Source of the DNA: a virus
Reading direction: 5' to 3' (one strand)
Virus record (IMG/VR): IMGVR_UViG_3300009124_000043
Location: 1 to 35,803 of that record
Length of the DNA stretch: 35,803 nucleotides
Shown: in pieces, positions 3,172 to 32,015 of the stretch
Layout: each line of letters opens with the position of its first letter
How positions within the stretch are numbered: position 1 is the stretch's first letter
Position numbers and translations under genes: made by a program
The notes under the pieces: generated by a model
Database searches by the model: none
What the model saw: only the letters and a program-made list of their open reading frames with translations
What the model was told of the DNA's origin: nothing

Positions 3172-3177
3172 CCCTGA

Positions 3178-3196
3178 CAGTCGCATGGTGCGGCTG
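3178..3196 (+). other. Short hairpin in the 5' leader of the next gene
   Basis: CAGTCGCA (3178-3185) pairs with TGCGGCTG (3189-3196) through eight base pairs with one G-U and a TGG loop. It ends 25 bases before the start codon of the small virion gene and would lie near the 5' end of a transcript from the candidate promoter, where it could protect the mRNA. The function is inferred. Confidence 0.4.
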
Positions 3197-3221
3197 ACAC
3201 TAGCCACGACAGGAGATACAC

Positions 3222-3437
3222 ATGGCTAACACAACTTTTAGCGGTCCAGTACGCTCAAAAGGCGGATTCAAGGAAATTGATGAAAACGCTACAACTGGTG
3301 CAATCACAGAGAACATTTCTATCACACACGATGGAACAAACAGCGTTGTGATTATCAAAGACCTACCAACTTCTGATCCATCTGTTGCAGGACAATTGTA
3401 CAGCAACTCAGGTGTCTTGACTGTCTCCGCAGGATAA
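3222..3437 (+). CDS. Small virion or head-fibre-like protein
   Basis: The 71-residue product ends in DLPTSDPSVAGQLYSNSGVL followed by a short TVSAG tail. This kind of ending (Asp/Pro-rich turn, GQLY or GALW, then VSAG) recurs in short marine phage structural proteins and at the ends of head-decoration proteins. It is beta-rich and has no hydrophobic segment. A good GGAG site sits 8-9 bases before the ATG. It is the first gene after the capsid terminator and starts a new run of virion genes. The exact role is unknown. Confidence 0.6.
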   Translation: MANTTFSGPVRSKGGFKEIDENATTGAITENISITHDGTNSVVIIKDLPTSDPSVAGQLYSNSGVLTVSAG

Positions 3438-3448
3438 GGAGATAGATC

Positions 3449-3853
3449 ATGGCTGACGCAGTAACGTCCCAAACACTTATCGACGGTGACAAAAAAGCTG
3501 TTATGAAGTTCACCAATATCTCTGACGGTACTGGTGAATCAGCAGTTGTTAAAGTTGATGTAAGTGCGTTAGCCGCCGATTCTCAAGGCCGCACATGTAC
3601 TGGTGTGGCTATTGAGCGTATTTGGTGGCAGTGTATTGGTATGAAAGTGCAAATCTTATGGGATGCAACTTCTGACCAATTTTGTATTGAGCTAGGTGAA
3701 AATCAAAGCGGCAATCATGATTATACTGTTTTTGGCGGTCTGACGAATAACGCAGGTGCTGGAAAAACAGGTGATGTTGCTTTTACCACTATAGGTCACA
3801 CAAGCGCGGATACTTATACAATTATTCTCTATATGAGAAAAGAGTATGGCTAA
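3449..3853 (+). CDS. Predicted virion protein, beta-rich
   Basis: The 134-residue product is beta-rich, with Thr/Gly/Asp-rich loops and a single pair of nearby Trp residues around IWWQCIGMK. No catalytic motif or membrane segment is seen. A GGAG site precedes the ATG, and the end overlaps the next gene by 8 bp, so the two are probably translated together. I recognise it only as a conserved type of marine phage structural gene. A capsid or head-surface protein is a reasonable guess. Confidence 0.6.
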   Translation: MADAVTSQTLIDGDKKAVMKFTNISDGTGESAVVKVDVSALAADSQGRTCTGVAIERIWWQCIGMKVQILWDATSDQFCIELGENQSGNHDYTVFGGLTNNAGAGKTGDVAFTTIGHTSADTYTIILYMRKEYG

Positions 3854-4649
3854 CTTTCGTTCCATAACGCAAGTTGGAACATCTGAGCCATTTGAGCTAC
3901 AGGTGGCCCGTGGTCAAATCACGGGTCATAAAACGACATTTAAGTTTGGTTACAACAACGATGTCGGAGACTCAAAAGAAACCATCTGGGAACAAGGTGG
4001 TTTGTATTCCTACCCCCCATCAGCCACGGTGATGACTATATCAAGCAGTTCGGCTAACGACACTGCCGCAGGTACTGGTGCAAGAACGGTTGAAGTTTTT
4101 GGCCTAGATGGTGACTACAACGAAATAAACGAAGTTGTCACGTTGAATGGGCAAACTGCTGTTAACACCACAAAATCTTACCTACGGATAAATCGCGGCA
4201 TTGTTCGTAGTGCGGGTAGTGGTGGCGCAAATGCTGGTATAATCTACGCTGGCACAGGAACAGTGACCACTGGAGTTCCTGCTAACATTTATCTTCTTAT
4301 TAATGGCGATGGTGATAATCAAACATTAATGGGTCTTTGGACAGTTCCCGCAGGATATACAGCCTTTCTTACAAAGATGGCTTTGTCCACAGGTACATCA
4401 ACTCAGACACCTGCTATTCTGAATGCGAGTCTTGTTGCTAGGCCATACGGAGAAGTCTTCCAGATAAAAGAAAGATTTACTCTTACAGATGGCGCACACG
4501 AGCAATTTTACACTTTTCCATTAAGGTTCACAGAAAAAACAGACTTGGAGATGAGGGCGTTTTCTTCCTCTGGATCTGTTAACTTTGATGTTTCTGCGTC
4601 AATGGAGTTTGTCTATATAGAAAACGAGGATTGGACAAATGGCTCGTAA
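3846..4649 (+). CDS. Predicted virion structural protein
   Basis: The 267-residue product is rich in Gly, Thr, Ser and aromatic residues, with a central beta-rich region and the stretch LWTVPAGYTAFLTKMALSTG near residues 165-184. That pattern is familiar from marine phage structural proteins with a jelly-roll-like fold. No enzyme motif is visible. The start overlaps the preceding gene by 8 bp and the end overlaps the following basic-protein gene by 11 bp, placing it in the same coupled operon. It may decorate the head or form part of a neck. I hold the structural call as likely and the position in the virion as unknown. Confidence 0.6.
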   Translation: MANFRSITQVGTSEPFELQVARGQITGHKTTFKFGYNNDVGDSKETIWEQGGLYSYPPSATVMTISSSSANDTAAGTGARTVEVFGLDGDYNEINEVVTLNGQTAVNTTKSYLRINRGIVRSAGSGGANAGIIYAGTGTVTTGVPANIYLLINGDGDNQTLMGLWTVPAGYTAFLTKMALSTGTSTQTPAILNASLVARPYGEVFQIKERFTLTDGAHEQFYTFPLRFTEKTDLEMRAFSSSGSVNFDVSASMEFVYIENEDWTNGS

Positions 4650-10377: not shown

Positions 10378-12606
10378 ATGCCTAGTACATATACAACTAA
10401 TAACGGTATTGAACTCATAGCTACAGGCGAACAGTCTGGTACATGGGGTTCTACCACAAACACAAACCTTGAACTTTTAGATGCTTCTCTTGACGGTCAG
10501 GTGACTGTTACGTTGGCATCGACAGGAACTTCTGGCTCGCCAAATACGCTTCCAATATCAGATGGATCTGCTTCTAATGGTCGCAATCGTTTGGTTATCT
10601 TCAATGATGGCTCTGATCTGGGTGGAACAGCTTACGTGCAGCTAACGCCAAATGACGCGGAAAAAATTGTTTATGTGCGTAACAGTTTATCTGGCTCACG
10701 CAGTATTTTGCTATTTCAAGGCACGTACAATGCATCAAACGACTATGAGGTTCCTGCGGGAACGACAGCGGTAGTTTTCTTCGACGGCGCAGGCACGGGC
10801 GCGGTAGCGGCAAATGTGTTTGATAATGCACACTTTGATGCTTTAAATATTGTTGGAAATGCATCTGTTGGTGGAACTTTATCTGTTACTAGCACCTCTA
10901 CATTTAATGATGATGTGACTTTTGTAGGCAGTACAAATAATATTGTCATTGATAAATCAGCAAATTCAATGACTTTTCAAGATGCTTCCAGAATGATATT
11001 TGGAACAGGGTCTGACTTGTTAATAGAGCATAGTGGCGCTTCTACAGAAAGTCGTATTTGGAATTACGGTGGTAATTTAAGTATTGCACAACAAGCTAAC
11101 GATGAAGACGTTGATATTTTAAGTGATGATGGTTCTGGTGGCACCGCTTCGTATTTTCGTGCGGATGGATCTACTGGAGAAGCCATGTTGTTTTATTATG
11201 GTTCAGAAAAACTTGCGACGAAAACAGGCGGCGTCGAAGTCACAGGCACTGTGACCGATGATGGTGCTACCCACGATGGTGATGTTACCTTTACAGGTGC
11301 TAACTATAACGTAGTCTGGGATAAGTCGGCTGATTCACTAGAGTTTCCAGATAATGCAAAAGCTGTTTTTGGTACAGGTAGTGATTATTCAATCTACTGC
11401 GATGGTTCTTCTACTGAAGAATTAGTATTTGAAGAAACTGGGGATGGTTCTGGAATTTTTAATTTTAAAGGCGATCTTGCTAATATAGTTGGTCCTATTG
11501 TTAGAATAGAGCATGATGTAACGACTGGAGGCAGTGGTAGCTTTCCCGGTACTTTTCAAGTGCTTACAAACGATGCTGGCGGCACTGGGTTTACAGCTTT
11601 TTCCATTACTGCCAAACTTGTAGATTCCACGTCTGGGGCATCAACCTCCGAAGCGCAGTTTGCAGTAAAAGAAGATGGTAACACTGCGCCAGAAGAATAT
11701 TTAAGACTAGATGGTGATTCGGAAAACATACAAACAAGAAAACCCCTTTCTGTTGTTGCTGGTATAACTGGCAACGTTGATGTAGCTGGCAATGTCACGG
11801 CTGATGGGCTGACTGTGGATGGTGACGTTACCTTTACAGGTGCTAACTACAATGTTGTTTGGGATAAGTCGGACGATGCACTAGAGTTTCCAGATAATGC
11901 CAAAATTGTTCTTGGTACAGGTGGTGACTATGCAATCTACAACGACGGTGCTGCGGCTGAACAATTAGTGTTTGAAGAAACTTCAGGTGCTTCTGGAGCT
12001 TTTGTTTTTCAAGGCAATCTTGCTAATTTAGTTGGCCCTTCTCTTAAACTAAAACATGATGTAACGGCTGGGGCTAGTGGTAACTTTCCCGCCCTACTGG
12101 ATATGCAGACAAAAGATGCTGGCGGTAATACTGTTGTATCTTTTAATATTACTTCCAAACTTGTAGATGCCACGTCTGGAGCAGCAACCACCGAAGCTAT
12201 TTTTTCTGTGAAAGAAGATGGCAATAGTGCAGCACAAGAATATATGAAACTAAATGGCGATGATGAGCAAATAGACGTATCAAAAAATATAGTTTCTACT
12301 GCGGATATTACGGCAGTAAACTTCAACACCACTTCTGATGCAAATCTCAAGACAAACATTAGCACTTTTGCAAATCCGTTAGATACGATAAACTCCTTGC
12401 GCGGGGTTGCGTTTGATTGGATAAATAGCGGTAAGTCAGAAATAGGTGTGATTGCTCAAGAAGTGGAAAAGGTTCTGCCTGATTTGGTGAGCACAAATAA
12501 AGAAGGAATTAAGTCGGTTAAATATGGAAACCTTATAGCAGTATTGATTGAGGCTGTTAAAGATCAACAATCTCAAATCAATGAACTAAAATCAAAACTT
12601 AGCTAA
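10378..12606 (+). CDS. Tail fibre with C-terminal S74 self-cleaving chaperone domain
   Basis: The 742-residue product starts with a fibre-base-like region (IELIATGEQSGTWGSTTNTN) and continues through beta-rich repeats. It ends in a Peptidase_S74 domain at about 648-742. The catalytic pair of this family is a Ser and a Lys five residues apart; here TSDANLKTNI gives Ser653 and Lys658. The domain also shows IGVIAQEVEKVLPDLV and a final trimeric coiled coil. S74 domains help the fibre trimer fold and then cut themselves off. The middle contains a tandem duplication of 181 codons (about residues 302-482 and 483-651). It likely binds the host surface along with the neighbouring fibre proteins. Confidence 0.85.
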   Translation: MPSTYTTNNGIELIATGEQSGTWGSTTNTNLELLDASLDGQVTVTLASTGTSGSPNTLPISDGSASNGRNRLVIFNDGSDLGGTAYVQLTPNDAEKIVYVRNSLSGSRSILLFQGTYNASNDYEVPAGTTAVVFFDGAGTGAVAANVFDNAHFDALNIVGNASVGGTLSVTSTSTFNDDVTFVGSTNNIVIDKSANSMTFQDASRMIFGTGSDLLIEHSGASTESRIWNYGGNLSIAQQANDEDVDILSDDGSGGTASYFRADGSTGEAMLFYYGSEKLATKTGGVEVTGTVTDDGATHDGDVTFTGANYNVVWDKSADSLEFPDNAKAVFGTGSDYSIYCDGSSTEELVFEETGDGSGIFNFKGDLANIVGPIVRIEHDVTTGGSGSFPGTFQVLTNDAGGTGFTAFSITAKLVDSTSGASTSEAQFAVKEDGNTAPEEYLRLDGDSENIQTRKPLSVVAGITGNVDVAGNVTADGLTVDGDVTFTGANYNVVWDKSDDALEFPDNAKIVLGTGGDYAIYNDGAAAEQLVFEETSGASGAFVFQGNLANLVGPSLKLKHDVTAGASGNFPALLDMQTKDAGGNTVVSFNITSKLVDATSGAATTEAIFSVKEDGNSAAQEYMKLNGDDEQIDVSKNIVSTADITAVNFNTTSDANLKTNISTFANPLDTINSLRGVAFDWINSGKSEIGVIAQEVEKVLPDLVSTNKEGIKSVKYGNLIAVLIEAVKDQQSQINELKSKLS
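11281..12330 (+). repeat. Tandem duplication of 181 codons in the S74 fibre gene
   Basis: The DNA from 11281 (GATGTTACCTTTACAGGTGC) reappears from 11824 (GACGTTACCTTTACAGGTGC), an offset of 543 bp. Matching protein landmarks in both copies are NYNVVWDKS, LEFPDNAK, LVFEET, HDVT and KEDGN. Differences are mostly at third codon positions near the start and grow along the unit. A shorter, more diverged relative (VTFVGSTNNIVIDKS) lies before them at about residues 180-195. Confidence 0.85.
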
Positions 12607-26515: not shown

Positions 26516-26914
26516 ATGAATAGTCGTGAACTGTTCGAGCGTCGAGAGGAACTCAAGCACGTTATCAGTGAATTGCGTGATGAGTTGAAAGACGTTGAAC
26601 AACAACTCCATGATACATTTTTTACCCAAGCGCGTGATGCTTTACGCGCAGACGGTAAAGACTTTGGCACCACATATATTGTTGCAGGCAATCGTAAGCT
26701 GAAGGCTACGGTGCGCAAGAAAGTCGTGTGGGACCAAGACGAACTTGGCTGCGTCTTAGAGGCAATGCCAGAGGAAGACGCACGTCATTACGGTAAGCTG
26801 ACACTTGCTGTTGACGAGCGTAAATACACAGCGGCACCACCCGCTATTCGCAACCTTCTTGAGCCATGTCGGACAGTTGAAGTCGGTGGCTTTACAATTG
26901 AGGAATCAGACTAA
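26516..26914 (+). CDS. Conserved coiled-coil protein of unknown function, early region
   Basis: The 132-residue product has an N-terminal coiled coil (RREELKHVISELRDELKDVE, about 9-28). A beta/alpha part follows with TTYIVAGNRKLKATVRKKVV and KLTLAVDERKYTAAPPAIRN. I recall similar proteins at the start of early operons of pelagic phages but cannot name a function. It precedes the two NGNHR paralogues and overlaps the first by one base. It could be a DNA-binding or Gam-like protein; this is a guess only. Confidence 0.6.
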   Translation: MNSRELFERREELKHVISELRDELKDVEQQLHDTFFTQARDALRADGKDFGTTYIVAGNRKLKATVRKKVVWDQDELGCVLEAMPEEDARHYGKLTLAVDERKYTAAPPAIRNLLEPCRTVEVGGFTIEESD

Positions 26915-27840
26915 TGAACTTTACTAGCAAGTTAGACGTCAAGCTGCAAGAAATGATGAATGCTTCTGATCCAATTGATCGAAAGCAAATTCTATTTAGT
27001 GCAGAAATCACCGCTGAAGAAATGAAGAAAATCAGCGAAATGAACTACAAAGGCAATCGTGATTTGCACCGCCCCACATTTCGCAAATATGTCAGGGCAA
27101 TGAATCTTAATCGTTGGGTTTTAACTCCCGAACCTTTGGTCTTTGTCAAACAAGGAACAGAATGGGTTATGATTAATGGCAATCATAGATCAAATGCTCA
27201 AATTGAAACGGGAACAACAAATTGTTATTCCATTGCAATTGTTGATTCCATCGACAGGTATAAATACTTGGATCAAGGAAAGGTAAGAACCAACGCAGAT
27301 ATTATTGGGGCGCACATCAATATTGTTCAGCCAATTCAATATCTTCTTCGTGCTTCTTCTTTCGTTTCACATCCAATGCCAGAAGATGTGGAAAACGTCC
27401 TGAGAAGTCGAATTGGTGAATTGCTTTCTGAAGTTGAATATGAAATCAAGCCACCGCGCAAAAGCGGAAGCATTTGGAAACAAACAGCGTTCAAAGCTGC
27501 GTTTGTAATGGCAATCATGACAGATCGCGTTAGCTATGAAAATGCTTATGATGTTTATGATTCACTTTCTCATGGTGATCTAAAAGAATGGCCTGATGTT
27601 TTCGTGCAGCTTTATCGGCAGGTCATGGAAAGTTCTATTTCTGTCAATAGAACAGGTCAATCTTTGGACAATGATTATTTCATGCGCGGAATGTTTGCGT
27701 TTGAACATCATAGCAGCGAAGGGAAAACCTTGGCGATTCATAACAACTTTAGAAACTCTGTCAAAGAAGACGTGTTTGAAGTCATGAAGCAGTTTACGCC
27801 AATCGAAGAAAAGGCGGCAGCGTATGAGGAGGCAAAGTGA
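26914..27840 (+). CDS. ParB/DGQHR-like domain protein, copy 1
   Basis: The 308-residue product carries NRWVLTPEPLVF (66-77), WVMINGNHRSNAQIETG (84-100, NGNHR at 88-92) and LDQGKVR (119-125). This order (strand, N/D-G-x-H-R, then D-x-G-x-x-R) is the core of the ParB/DGQHR-like fold used by ParB-type proteins, DndB and related phage proteins. The C-terminal half is helical with EIKPPRKSG and WPDVFVQLYRQVM. The gene starts on a TAATG junction and ends on a TGATG junction with a second copy. The domain may bind nucleotide or DNA; the biological role is unknown. A DNA-modification or anti-restriction function is a hypothesis. Confidence 0.7.
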   Translation: MNFTSKLDVKLQEMMNASDPIDRKQILFSAEITAEEMKKISEMNYKGNRDLHRPTFRKYVRAMNLNRWVLTPEPLVFVKQGTEWVMINGNHRSNAQIETGTTNCYSIAIVDSIDRYKYLDQGKVRTNADIIGAHINIVQPIQYLLRASSFVSHPMPEDVENVLRSRIGELLSEVEYEIKPPRKSGSIWKQTAFKAAFVMAIMTDRVSYENAYDVYDSLSHGDLKEWPDVFVQLYRQVMESSISVNRTGQSLDNDYFMRGMFAFEHHSSEGKTLAIHNNFRNSVKEDVFEVMKQFTPIEEKAAAYEEAK

Positions 27841-28751
27841 TGAATATTTTTGAAAAACTTGATCTTAAATGGCAAGAAATGCACAACACCGATTGCCCTT
27901 TGGACAGTAAGCAGTTGACCTTTAATTCTCTTCTTTCTTCAGAAGACGCAAAAAAACTGTGTGAGTTCAATTACAGTGGCAACAGAGACTTAAACAATCA
28001 AAACTATAGGCGATTTGTTAGGTCGATGAATTTAAGCAGGTGGGACTTAACCCCAGAGCCGTTAGTGTTTACTAAATATGATGGCTCTTGGGTTCTTATC
28101 AACGGAAACCACCGTTTAAATGCACAAATTGAAACCGGAAAACAAATTGCTTATGCGGTGTCAATTGTCAGAGAGCTTGAAATTTTTAAAATTCTTGATC
28201 AAGGAAAGGCACGTTCTATCCATGAAATCCTTAACATTGAAAAACAAGTAAGCGGTCCAATCGCTTATCTTTTCAGGTCTGCAACTTTTGTAAGAGATCC
28301 CTCGCATGAAGATGTTCATAAGGTCATTAATACTAAAGTTGGAAATCTCTTAATTGAAATTGAACAAGAGATTAAGCCACCTAAAAGTGCAAGAAGTCCT
28401 TGGAAATCACCTTCCTTTAGAGCGGCATATGTTATGGCGATTGAGTTGGGTTTAATTGAACATGAAAAGGCTCGTGAATTGTACAATGTAATCTGCCATT
28501 CAAACATTAAAAAATGGCCTGATGTATTTGTTTCCATGCACAAACAAATCATGGAAAAAACCATTGGGATCGAAACAGGTGGCAGGACCCTTGATAACAC
28601 AAATTTTATGAGAGGGATGTATGCCTTTGCAAATTCTGATTGGGAAGGTGATCATATGTCTGTGCATCAATCTTTTAGGAAAAAACTAAAAGAAATGGTT
28701 CCAAATTATATGAAAAAATACACGTTAGAAGAAGAAAGGATGGTGTCATAA
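27840..28751 (+). CDS. ParB/DGQHR-like domain protein, copy 2
   Basis: Starting at the ATG of the TGATG junction (27840), the product has 303 residues. It is colinear with copy 1: KLD at 6-8, TPEPLVF at 71-77, NGNHR at 88-92 and LDQGKAR at 119-125 have identical positions. By hand I count 54 identities in the first 96 residues. The C-terminal half keeps IKPPK, FRAAYVMAIELGL, WPDVFV and MRGMYAF. Third positions are visibly AT-richer than in copy 1. A GTG at 27837 would add one residue and break the exact alignment, so ATG is preferred. Tandem duplication followed by divergence, or acquisition of a related copy, would explain the pair. Confidence 0.75.
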   Translation: MNIFEKLDLKWQEMHNTDCPLDSKQLTFNSLLSSEDAKKLCEFNYSGNRDLNNQNYRRFVRSMNLSRWDLTPEPLVFTKYDGSWVLINGNHRLNAQIETGKQIAYAVSIVRELEIFKILDQGKARSIHEILNIEKQVSGPIAYLFRSATFVRDPSHEDVHKVINTKVGNLLIEIEQEIKPPKSARSPWKSPSFRAAYVMAIELGLIEHEKARELYNVICHSNIKKWPDVFVSMHKQIMEKTIGIETGGRTLDNTNFMRGMYAFANSDWEGDHMSVHQSFRKKLKEMVPNYMKKYTLEEERMVS

Positions 28752-29614
28752 TGGCTTTGCAAATTATCACAGCCGATCAGCGTCTCGCTGAAAAGAAAGG
28801 CCACAAGATCGTGGTATGTGGGCAAAGTGGTGTGGGTAAAACCACACTCGCCCGAACATTAAACAGCGCAAGCACGTTGTTCTTGGACCTTGAGGCGGGT
28901 GATGCTGCAATCGAAGGACACCCGATTGACGTTATTCGTCCTCGCACATGGACAGAGTGTCGTGACCTTGCCTGTTTCTTGGGCGGACCTAATCCCGCGC
29001 TTAGTGAGGATCAGCCTTACTCTCAGGCGCATTACGATTATGTTGCCTCAATGTTTGGAGACAGTGCAGAAATCTGGCAGAGGTACGATACTCTTTTCGT
29101 GGACTCTATTACTGTTGCAGGGCGTTTGTGCTTTCAGTGGTGCTTACAGCAGCCTGAGTCGCGCTCTGAGCGGTCAGGGAAGCTGGACACACGCGCAGCT
29201 TACGGAATGCATGGACGTGAGATGATGTCATGGCTCACACACTTGCAGCACATCCGCGAAAAGAATGTGATTTTTGTTGGCATTCTTGACGAAATCACAG
29301 ATGATTATGGGCGCAAGCAATATGCGCTGCAAATCGAAGGCAGCAAAACTGGTCGTGAATTGCCCGGGATTGTTGACGAAGTAATTACAATGGCAATCCT
29401 GTCAGGGGATCACGGTCAGTATCGTGCATTTGTCTGTCAGCCATTGAATGAATGGGGATACCCTGCAAAAGATCGCAGTGGTCGCCTCGAAACTTTGGAA
29501 GAGCCGCATCTTGGCAAACTAATGGAAAAGATGTCTAGTGGTTCTCCAGAGGACTCCAAGGATTTGACGTTCGTTGATCCTGCAACTCAAAACTCTAGCG
29601 AAGAGGTAGCATAA
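28751..29614 (+). CDS. Sak4-like RecA-fold ATPase (single-strand annealing)
   Basis: The 287-residue product has Walker A GQSGVGKT (24-31) and Walker B LFVDS (115-119, Asp118). The later motifs WLTHLQHIREKNVIFVGIL and GSKTGRELPGIVDEVITMAI are typical of the phage AAA_24 / Sak4 family. These proteins bind single-stranded DNA and help strand annealing together with the phage SSB. The following gene is an SSB-like protein, matching known Sak4-SSB pairs. The gene starts in a TAATG overlap with the previous gene. ATPase and family are well supported; the annealing role is from the family. Confidence 0.85.
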   Translation: MALQIITADQRLAEKKGHKIVVCGQSGVGKTTLARTLNSASTLFLDLEAGDAAIEGHPIDVIRPRTWTECRDLACFLGGPNPALSEDQPYSQAHYDYVASMFGDSAEIWQRYDTLFVDSITVAGRLCFQWCLQQPESRSERSGKLDTRAAYGMHGREMMSWLTHLQHIREKNVIFVGILDEITDDYGRKQYALQIEGSKTGRELPGIVDEVITMAILSGDHGQYRAFVCQPLNEWGYPAKDRSGRLETLEEPHLGKLMEKMSSGSPEDSKDLTFVDPATQNSSEEVA

Positions 29615-30240
29615 TGCTAAATTTAAATAATGTACCCGCCGACGATAATTCACAAAACCGTGAGTTTACGTTAATCCCGAACGGCACAGTGTGCCGCGCC
29701 GTAATTGTTGTAAAGCAAGGCGATACAGAAGTTCCAGAGTTTGGCTCTGGCCCGTGGTTCAAGAAGTCCATGTCATCTGCGGCAAAATGGATGGAGCTTG
29801 AGTTCACTATCATTGGTGGTGAATATGATCGCCGTAAGTTCTGGGATCGCATCTTTGTCGATGGTGATAAGATGGGCCAGAGCGGCATCCCGCAGGCCAA
29901 AGAGATTGGTTTGCGCACATTGAAATCAATTGTCGAAAGTGCGCGTAACATTGATCCTGCGGACATGTCGCCACAGGCACAGCAAAACAGAAATATTTCT
30001 GGTGTTTTTGACTTAAATGCTATGGAAATCTGTGCTAAGATTGGTATTAAGAAAGGAACAAACGGCTACAGCGATAGCAATCGCTTGGTTGCCGCCTTGA
30101 CACCTAATTCGCGGGAATTTATCCCAAGTGGTCAGGCTCCAGTAATGCAGACCCCAGCGGCTGCACAGTCGATGCAACAAGTGGCACCCACAGCGCCACC
30201 ACAAGCGTCAGGAGCAATCCCATCTTGGGCTAACAGATAA
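29614..30240 (+). CDS. DUF669-like single-stranded DNA-binding protein
   Basis: The 208-residue product has a beta-rich part (about 15-105) with GPWFKKSMSSAAKWMELEFT and KFWDRIFVDGDKM, as in DUF669-type OB-fold proteins that replace SSB in phages. A short linker and a Gln/Ala/Pro-rich flexible tail ending ASGAIPSWANR follow, like the tails that recruit partners. It is encoded directly after the Sak4-like ATPase, starting at the last base of its stop. The structured leader RNA begins one base after its stop codon, so its mRNA and protein may both be involved in controlling the next gene. Confidence 0.75.
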   Translation: MLNLNNVPADDNSQNREFTLIPNGTVCRAVIVVKQGDTEVPEFGSGPWFKKSMSSAAKWMELEFTIIGGEYDRRKFWDRIFVDGDKMGQSGIPQAKEIGLRTLKSIVESARNIDPADMSPQAQQNRNISGVFDLNAMEICAKIGIKKGTNGYSDSNRLVAALTPNSREFIPSGQAPVMQTPAAAQSMQQVAPTAPPQASGAIPSWANR

Positions 30241-30320
30241 TCTAGCGGCAAGGCCATTCCGCGCCTGCTAGACCTCTGACCGGGGGGCAGAGGGCCGCAT
30301 ACCCCCCACCAATTCTAGCG
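30241..30320 (+). promoter_or_regulatory. Structured leader RNA: H-type pseudoknot with alternative stems
   Basis: CCTCTG (30273-30278) pairs with CAGAGG (30288-30293). The loop contains GGGGGG (30282-30287), which can pair with CCCCCC (30302-30307), giving an H-type pseudoknot with a 3-base and an 8-base loop. GCTAGA (30267-30272) can pair either with TCTAGC at 30241-30246 upstream or with TCTAGC at 30314-30319 downstream, which ends five bases before the helicase Shine-Dalgarno. No U-run follows, so it is not a simple terminator. It is distinctly GC-rich for this genome. Confidence 0.65.
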
Positions 30321-30332
30321 AACAGGTGTTTT

Positions 30333-32015
30333 ATGTTATTACGTCCCTACCAAGAGGTAGCCGTGAACGATGCTATCAAGGCACTCGACAAACACGGTAA
30401 CACTCTCGTCGTTGCGCCCACAGGTGCAGGCAAAACCATCATGCTTTCCGCGCTCGTAGGCAAGCGCCACAAAGAAGGCAAAAAGATTCTTATCGTCCAA
30501 CACCGCGACGAACTTGTTGAGCAAAACCAATCCAAGTTCAAAAAGGTGAACCCCTACATTACCACAAGCATCGTCAATGGAACGGTCAAGCATTGGGACG
30601 GGGATGCAGTGTTCTCAATGGTTCAGACCATTTCACGCGAGCGTAACCTTAGACACCGCCCCAAGTTTGACATGGTGGTCATTGATGAAGGCCACCATGC
30701 TGCGGCTCCCACATATCGCCGTGTGGTTGATGCCGTGCTTGAAGACAATGACAAAGCAGAGATTGTGGGCTTTACAGCCACGCCCAACCGTGGTGATGGC
30801 AAAGGATTGCGCTCTGTGTTTAACAACTGCGCACATCAGATTGAAATCGGCTCTCTAATTCAAGAGGGCTTTCTGGTGCGCCCCAAAACATTTATCGTCG
30901 ATCTAGGTGTAAATGATCAACTGAATAAAGTCACAAAGCGCGGAAAAGAATATGACATGGAAGAGGTCGCCGCTATCATGGACCGCCAAGTCATTAACGA
31001 TAGAATTGTTCGAGAGTGGCGGGACAAGGCAGGTGATCGCAAAACTGTTGTATTCTGTTCAACAATCAAACATGCCGAAAATCTTTGCTTGGCGTTTCTG
31101 CTTGCAGACATTAAGGCAGATTACGTCACAGGCGAAACGCCAAAAGAAGAAAGATCGCAAATGCTCCATGACCTTGAGCATGGTGATTTGCAGGTTGTGG
31201 TCAACGTAGCGGTGCTTACAGAGGGGTTTGACGCCCCGCCTGTGTCATGTGTCGTCCTGACCCGTCCCTGCTCTCAGAAAGGCACTATGGTCCAGATGAT
31301 TGGTCGTGGGCTACGCATCGTTGATCCAGAGTTGTATCCAAACACAATCAAAACTGATTGCATTGTCATGGACTTTGGGACGTCTGTAATTACGCATGGC
31401 AGTATTGATGATGTCGCCAACTTGGATGGCAGGGAAAAAGCAGAAGGGGGAGAAGCGCCGACAAAAATCTGCCCAGAGTGCGAGGCCGAAGTTGCCCCGA
31501 ACACCCGCGAATGCCCATTCTGTGGTCACATCTTTGAAAAGGTTAAAAAAGACGTACTCGAAAACTTTGTGATGACCGAATACGATTTAATGCAGCTATC
31601 TCCATTTATGTGGATCAGCCCATTCCAAGAGGGCAACGCATTGATGGCTATGGGCTTCCAAGGATTTGCATTTGTAGGCCACCTTCAAGAAAATATGTGG
31701 ATTGCAATGGTAAAGCAAAACAAGGGTCGCGTTCGCACAGTAGCGATTGGTGAGAAAGTTCACGCCATGTCAGCAGCGGACGATTTCTTGCGCGAAATTG
31801 AGGACAGTGATGCAGCTAACAAAAGCAAGCGTTGGCTCAATAACAGAGCCACTGATAAGCAAAGAAGCCTTCTATTAGACCAAGGCATTCAAATCAGCCC
31901 AATGGACTTTTCATGGACGAAATATAAAGCAGGATGCGCTTTGAATTTCTTCTGGAACAAGGACGCTTTGGAAAAAGCCTTCTATGCAGCAGAGGATAAA
32001 ATCTTTGCACATTAA
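30333..32015 (+). CDS. Superfamily 2 DNA helicase with C-terminal zinc finger
   Basis: The 560-residue product has the SF2 motifs: Q-region RPYQ (4-7), Walker A PTGAGKT (29-35), DEGH (118-121), FTATP (147-151) and the motif VI QMIGRGLR (321-328). A zinc finger with Cys380, Cys383, Cys394 and Cys397 (CPEC...CPFC) follows, then a phage-specific C-terminal region. It is like type III restriction helicase subunits or UvsW-type phage helicases that unwind and remodel replication or recombination intermediates. Its start lies after the structured leader with CAGG upstream. The function in recombination-linked replication is inferred from its neighbours. Confidence 0.88.
   Translation: MLLRPYQEVAVNDAIKALDKHGNTLVVAPTGAGKTIMLSALVGKRHKEGKKILIVQHRDELVEQNQSKFKKVNPYITTSIVNGTVKHWDGDAVFSMVQTISRERNLRHRPKFDMVVIDEGHHAAAPTYRRVVDAVLEDNDKAEIVGFTATPNRGDGKGLRSVFNNCAHQIEIGSLIQEGFLVRPKTFIVDLGVNDQLNKVTKRGKEYDMEEVAAIMDRQVINDRIVREWRDKAGDRKTVVFCSTIKHAENLCLAFLLADIKADYVTGETPKEERSQMLHDLEHGDLQVVVNVAVLTEGFDAPPVSCVVLTRPCSQKGTMVQMIGRGLRIVDPELYPNTIKTDCIVMDFGTSVITHGSIDDVANLDGREKAEGGEAPTKICPECEAEVAPNTRECPFCGHIFEKVKKDVLENFVMTEYDLMQLSPFMWISPFQEGNALMAMGFQGFAFVGHLQENMWIAMVKQNKGRVRTVAIGEKVHAMSAADDFLREIEDSDAANKSKRWLNNRATDKQRSLLLDQGIQISPMDFSWTKYKAGCALNFFWNKDALEKAFYAAEDKIFAH

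Follow-up and report, generated by a model that had tools for sequence, protein, structure and literature searches.

Two genes of the phage DNA analysed here (the window, 35,803 nt, an IMG/VR phage record) are separated by a short GC-rich stretch in which a stem, a pseudoknot and a repeated hexamer had been noticed. The question raised by this locus is whether that stretch is a structured RNA and, if so, what it could do between a gene for an SSB-like protein and a gene for a helicase.

Neighbouring genes and layout of the element

By sequence, the product of the upstream gene (Table 1) matched phrog_2300 alone, a family for which no function is given; searches with Pfam and NCBIfam HMMs gave no SSB match, and matches to PDB sequences of triosephosphate isomerase were rejected as spurious. 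An AlphaFold model made from an alignment of 57 diverse homologues had a pLDDT of 84.7 (12 close sequences gave only 41.6), and Foldseek matched this model to PrgE of pCF10 (E = 1.5e-4), more weakly to RPA and bacterial SSBs, and also to phage DUF669 and SSB proteins. The original prediction of an SSB-like protein is borne out as a predicted fold, the model supporting an OB fold of the PrgE/DUF669-like type. Further upstream, two adjacent genes (26914–27840 and 27837–28751) both match phrog_5931, function not given, and look like a tandem duplication.

Table 1. Coordinates in the window of the RNA element, its helices and the two flanking genes.
Feature	Position	Strand	Basis or remark
SSB-like OB-fold protein gene (predicted fold)	29614..30240	+	phrog_2300; AlphaFold, Foldseek
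Whole RNA element, hairpin + H-type pseudoknot	30241..30307	+	CM R1 match (window + 57 loci); covariation
P1 5′ strand UCUAG	30241..30245	+	abuts SSB stop TAA (30238–30240); partner 30268–30272
Bulge GGC, proposed P4 5′ strand	30247..30249	+	partner 30294–30296; weakest helix
P1b 5′ strand AGGC, first hairpin	30251..30254	+	types AGGC/GCCU, AGGU/ACCU, GGGU/ACCC
P1b 3′ strand GCCU	30263..30266	+	partner of AGGC 30251..30254
P1 3′ strand CUAGA; GCUAGA with G30267	30268..30272	+	complementary also to copy at 30314
P2 5′ strand CCUCUG	30273..30278	+	12 combinations; complementary 57/57
P3 (pseudoknot) 5′ strand GGGGGG	30282..30287	+	variants GGGGAG/CUCCCC, GAGGGG/CCCCUC, AGGGGG/CCCCCU
P2 3′ strand CAGAGG	30288..30293	+	partner of CCUCUG; covariation
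GCC, proposed P4 3′ strand, within P2–P3 loop	30294..30296	+	parsed cores, CM alignment
P3 3′ strand CCCCCC	30302..30307	+	partner of GGGGGG; covariation
Downstream UCUAGC copy, alternative GCUAGA partner	30314..30319	+	TCTAG retained in 54/57 tails
AGG, probable helicase Shine-Dalgarno core (ATG 30333)	30324..30326	+	sequence
SF2 helicase gene, ResIII/Helicase_C	30333..32015	+	nearest NCBIfam RadD, below its cut-off

The pseudoknot was present as first described, with a 6-bp stem (P2), a loop that reads directly as ACC followed by GGGGGG (30282–30287) and CCCCCC eight bases 3′ of the stem, together spanning 30273–30307; the C-run is followed by ACCAATTCTAG. The two TCTAGC copies with which GCTAGA (30267–30272) could pair were confirmed at 30241 and 30314, the second lying 4 nt 5′ of the AGG of the helicase ribosome site, and the direct repeats AATCTAGCG and AATTCTAGCG do flank the element. 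The hairpin P1b, which lies before the pseudoknot, proved to be an integral part of the RNA. The high GC content that had been noted was also evident, at 70% compared with 48% in both flanking genes and 44% in the entire window; only 6 of the 35,736 segments of element length in the stretch were equally GC-rich.

Taken by itself, the fold of this single window could be chance. The folding z-score of the element was -1.2 (with the pseudoknot left out), and comparable 6 + 6 bp H-type pseudoknots, of which the one at the element is the only example in the window, arose about 0.3 times per simulated window of the same composition (13 in 40). The significance of the fold therefore comes from covariation across relatives and not from the window.

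Covariation of the helices across relatives

Protein searches with the SSB-like protein and with the helicase as queries yielded several hundred loci, mostly on fragments of marine phage contigs, and some of the loci had been picked up by searching for the pattern of the element itself. The element-bearing set comprised 328 loci entries, many sharing contigs, which reduced to 65 distinct stretches and 57 distinct cores. At the loci found by protein search alone the element was present without exception, and it was found in every one of the fetched relatives of the SSB-like gene at about 60% identity or more that had enough downstream DNA.

All 57 cores could be parsed, with P1 (UCUAG/CUAGA), a bulge GGC-A and then the hairpin P1b, which was of the types AGGC/GCCU, CAGGU/ACCUG and GGGU/ACCC and had a loop variable in both sequence and length. 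P2 was 5–6 bp, usually with a loop of 1–3 nt after its 5′ strand, and was complementary in 57 of 57 versions (shuffle mean, 16) while being made up of 12 different sequence combinations. P3, the pairing of a G-run with a C-run, was 5–8 bp and abutted P2 directly in nearly all versions, and the loop between the two helices started with GCC in most. Both things that the original prediction had called for, compensatory changes in homologous leaders and a G-run/C-run pairing kept in close relatives, were thus found, the former in P2 and in the variants of P3.

Covariation was counted on a CM alignment (A7, 56 distinct rows) together with the separate parsing of segments; a MAFFT alignment (A3), in which some helices were out of place, was not used for these counts. 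In A7, 97.0% of pair cells held standard pairs, compared with 88.9% in shuffles, double-change cells numbered 78 as opposed to 19.7, with none of 500 shuffles as high, and the covariation score was 0.209 against 0.070 for shuffled alignments. When the partner columns were slid by 1–3 positions, pairing fell to 44–57%. Nine pairs in total had changed on both sides in this alignment; such changes were found in five pairs of P2 and three of P3, as is expected of an H-type pseudoknot, and the P1b pair 17–27 covaried (CG/UA). On the SSB-gene tree the four variable inner pairs of P2 showed at least 8, 4, 10 and 4 changes, equal on both sides, numbers that recombination between phages may have inflated.

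P1 is nearly invariant and so lies outside the reach of covariation, and it is the complementarity of its strands that suggests this helix. For P4, in which GGC would pair with GCC, the evidence comes from two lineages, one with CGC/GCG (L365) and the other with an extended GUGGC/GCCAC (L120); A7 misaligns this helix in some rows, and it is a probable second pseudoknot helix. Non-Watson–Crick changes in P1 and P2 included three G-U and no A-C, and the occurrence of the former but never the latter fits an RNA of the sense strand. Judged from these alignments, the element is a structured RNA on that strand, with covarying P1b, P2 and P3.

Position, distribution and origin

In all versions P1 started at -1 to +2 nt from the SSB stop codon, and the distance from P3 to the following start codon ranged from 20 to 35 nt, a spread of 15 nt. 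The gene after the RNA was the helicase in 121 of the 134 distinct contexts with enough downstream DNA, and a nuclease gene (PDDEXK_14) followed by the helicase in 13, so that the helicase would not always be the directly controlled gene. This putative endonuclease gene, possibly a mobile cargo gene, sits exactly between the TCTAGC of the RNA and the helicase start (for example at 3502–3915 on the minus strand of L199, and also in L035, L101, L116 and L226).

Ten records each carried one copy of the element per genome. A minority of the pattern-search matches were without the gene pair and pseudoknot and were rejected as chance; all others lay at the SSB–helicase position. Among 397 genomes from the family of a Rhodobacteraceae MAG, the sole real match was the phage contig of that MAG, which may be a binned phage, and three weak matches (E 0.04–0.08) were judged to be chance. 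Because the contig carries the element, Rhodobacteraceae are suggested as the host family, and on this evidence the clade probably infects them. The phrog_2300 family was seen in 59 of 395 genomes from the order of the same MAG, presumably in prophages.

L458 and 80 further loci encoding relatives of its helicase (46–50% identical to the helicase of the window) were compared, and both genes were present in 73. None of these 73 had the RNA, and in 70 of them the two genes were 7–18 nt apart. A cmsearch of 68 stretches with distant helicase relatives did not find the RNA, and in 80 loci of distant SSB relatives neither this helicase nor the RNA was found. By this comparison the element is specific to one marine clade; it would most simply be an addition in that clade, repeated loss being a less simple alternative, and since the relatives without the RNA have the gene pair mostly 7–18 nt apart, it appears to have replaced ordinary coupling. 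The suggestion that the element was inserted therefore holds in part: it is absent between the same genes in distant relatives, but with one copy in one place it gives no sign of mobility.

Possible functions and comparison with known systems

A two-state switch had also been proposed. GCTAGA does have mutually exclusive partners, and the downstream TCTAG was retained in 54 of 57 tails, whereas the best unrelated pentamer reached 23 of 57 and the surrounding tail has diverged; three of the 57 versions (L343, L345 and L346) have the RNA and not this copy. The two states were computed by partition function with the G- and C-runs of the pseudoknot held unpaired. The free RNA adopted the P1 state in most sequences, and when the first 9 nt were covered, to imitate a ribosome at the SSB stop codon, pairing with the downstream copy reached 0.45–1.0 in 13 of 13 copy-bearing sequences. 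The computed effect of covering was inconsistent: the Shine-Dalgarno sequence lost accessibility in the window and gained it in other versions. The model thus gives a pairing that is structurally sound in most versions but not universal, and a plausible candidate switch. A trans-acting seed, GCTAGA against TCTAGCGAA before the SSB start (29594), was dropped, as the motif is absent in many lineages; TCTAGCGAA (29594–29600 in the window) is found ahead of the SSB ribosome site in many relatives as well, within the last part of the Sak4-like gene.

Most likely, the RNA is a cis-acting translational element. The specific form of this reading that we favour, a quite possible one although we would stop short of calling it probable, is that the RNA acts in cis within the SSB–helicase mRNA and sets translation of the next gene, be it the helicase or the inserted nuclease, by ribosome traffic at the SSB stop. 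With no ribosome there, P1 would form and the entire domain would be folded; a ribosome terminating on SSB would cover UCUAGCGGC, so that P1 and P4 would melt, and the freed GCUAGA could then pair with UCUAGC beside the downstream ribosome site and change initiation of the next gene, either on or off. The fixed spacing from stop to P1, as opposed to the variable stretch between P3 and the start codon, speaks for such a reading of termination, whereas the near invariance of P1 leaves it and its alternative without covariation support. More tentatively, the element may be a phage regulatory RNA of a new class, in which a hairpin is joined to an H-type pseudoknot by a GGC/GCC pseudoknot, and which sits at a stop codon, reads SSB termination to set the next replication gene and has replaced close coupling in one marine clade. 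The strong covariation comes with a clean contrast: the marine clade has the RNA between these two genes, and distant relatives have the gene pair without it. This makes cause and effect testable by simple reporters.

Other roles can be set against this reading. In one alternative, modelled on T4 gp32, the RNA would be an operator: the SSB-like protein, or a different phage protein, would bind to the pseudoknot and so repress the gene that comes next. The neighbouring gene encodes the predicted OB-fold protein and has the RNA immediately 3′ of it in every case, and the helix sequences vary freely while the shape is kept, which would suit a protein that recognises shape; many SSB relatives in the same family, however, are without such an RNA, and we consider an operator rather unlikely. 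It would not in any case be autoregulation, because the RNA comes after the SSB gene and does not lead it. T4 gp32, cited earlier as a precedent, acts on its own leader, whereas every version of the element starts at the stop codon of SSB, which speaks against a T4-type SSB operator and leaves an analogy. Its fixation at this stop, always with SSB even if another gene precedes the helicase, and its compact, GC-rich fold would suit a 3′-end stabiliser or processing boundary that blocks exonucleases, so that the SSB mRNA outlasts the downstream part. An ordinary hairpin would suffice for that purpose, however, the retained downstream TCTAG would be left unexplained, and the element has no terminator-like site (no intrinsic terminator, a GC stem with a direct T run, was found in 29500–30500); this role, too, seems doubtful.

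Known RNA classes gave little to hold on to. Scanned with cmscan against the 4227 families of Rfam 15, both at gathering cut-offs and permissively (E ≤ 10), the element matched none of them, and neither did its counterparts in ten relatives. A Group I intron (RF00028) was seen at 11843–12114 on the minus strand of L185, a viral contig unrelated to these. A compact pseudoknot with few conserved unpaired bases, 5′ of a ribosome site, could be a ligand-binding riboswitch controlling the helicase, but this is improbable, given that no Rfam riboswitch matched even at E ≤ 10, that the hairpin loop is variable, without a strongly invariant core, and that the downstream genes process DNA and have no metabolic theme. 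Still less probable is a function as DNA, for example as a packaging signal or a single-stranded origin. The surrounding block of replication and recombination genes could house a phage replication origin, but the placement is tied to a stop codon and a ribosome site, and G-U outnumbers A-C among the changes in P1 and P2, although such events are few and G-T is possible in sense-strand ssDNA. A self-cleaving ribozyme of HDV-like topology is hardly credible. The strand order, and that alone, agrees (P1, GGC, hairpin, P1′, second hairpin, GCC); no Rfam ribozyme matched, and the element has the additional pseudoknot P3, absent from HDV. In the HDV ribozyme the catalytic C lies in the segment corresponding to the junction of P2 and GCC (J4/2), where the element has zero nucleotides. 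A frameshift or readthrough pseudoknot was rejected, as the SSB–helicase gaps of 91–99 nt are not frame-preserving and no slippery heptamer was seen by eye at the SSB end.

The window contains a second conserved phage RNA with no function assigned, Mu-gpT-DE (RF03012, 76.5 bits, 3172–3224, just 3′ of the major head gene), which is like the element in these respects but unrelated in sequence and in place, being in the head gene region. The ssNA-helicase motif of Weinberg et al. (2017) is reportedly found only in metagenomes, upstream of helicase genes. The element, which precedes a helicase gene in DNA from metagenomes, fits this description by position. The motif gave no match (E ≤ 10) in the 11 stretches with the element that were scanned, its presence in Rfam 15 being inferred from its listing as an Rfam 14.6 family (PMC10044938). 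As far as could be tested by the Rfam scan, the RNA is absent from Rfam; if the published ssNA-helicase alignment were this RNA, it would be already known and its structure extended here.

In repZ of the IncI plasmid ColIb-P9, a pseudoknot gives way when ribosomes terminate on the reading frame before it. The mechanism proposed here would follow this principle: in computed folding, covering the stop region changes the fold of the element, with an inconsistent effect on the ribosome site. The repZ system belongs to a plasmid, is controlled by an antisense RNA, has a short leader peptide and bears no sequence or structural relation to the element; its pseudoknot switch, too, is described as lying upstream of the ribosome site (Asano and Mizobuchi 1998, as reported in PMC8383071).

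Regulatory pseudoknots are known from few phage mRNAs, and a 2010 review considered T4 gene 32 perhaps the sole viral pseudoknot in translational autoregulation (PMC3014915). In T4, T2 and RB69 the pseudoknot operator is located upstream of the SSB gene under its control, with an A+U-rich tract for gp32 binding after it (PMC3014915, PMC535899). By analogy, the element resembles gene 32 control in its ingredients, namely a phage, an SSB gene, an H-type pseudoknot of compact, coaxial-type geometry in the message and a neighbouring gene product that is an OB-fold protein by predicted fold. It differs in arrangement, as it lies after the SSB gene and before a helicase, and it has a GC-rich P3 and an additional 5′ hairpin. 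The element is a second case of a phage pseudoknot beside an SSB gene, with no relation to that of T4 in place or structure.
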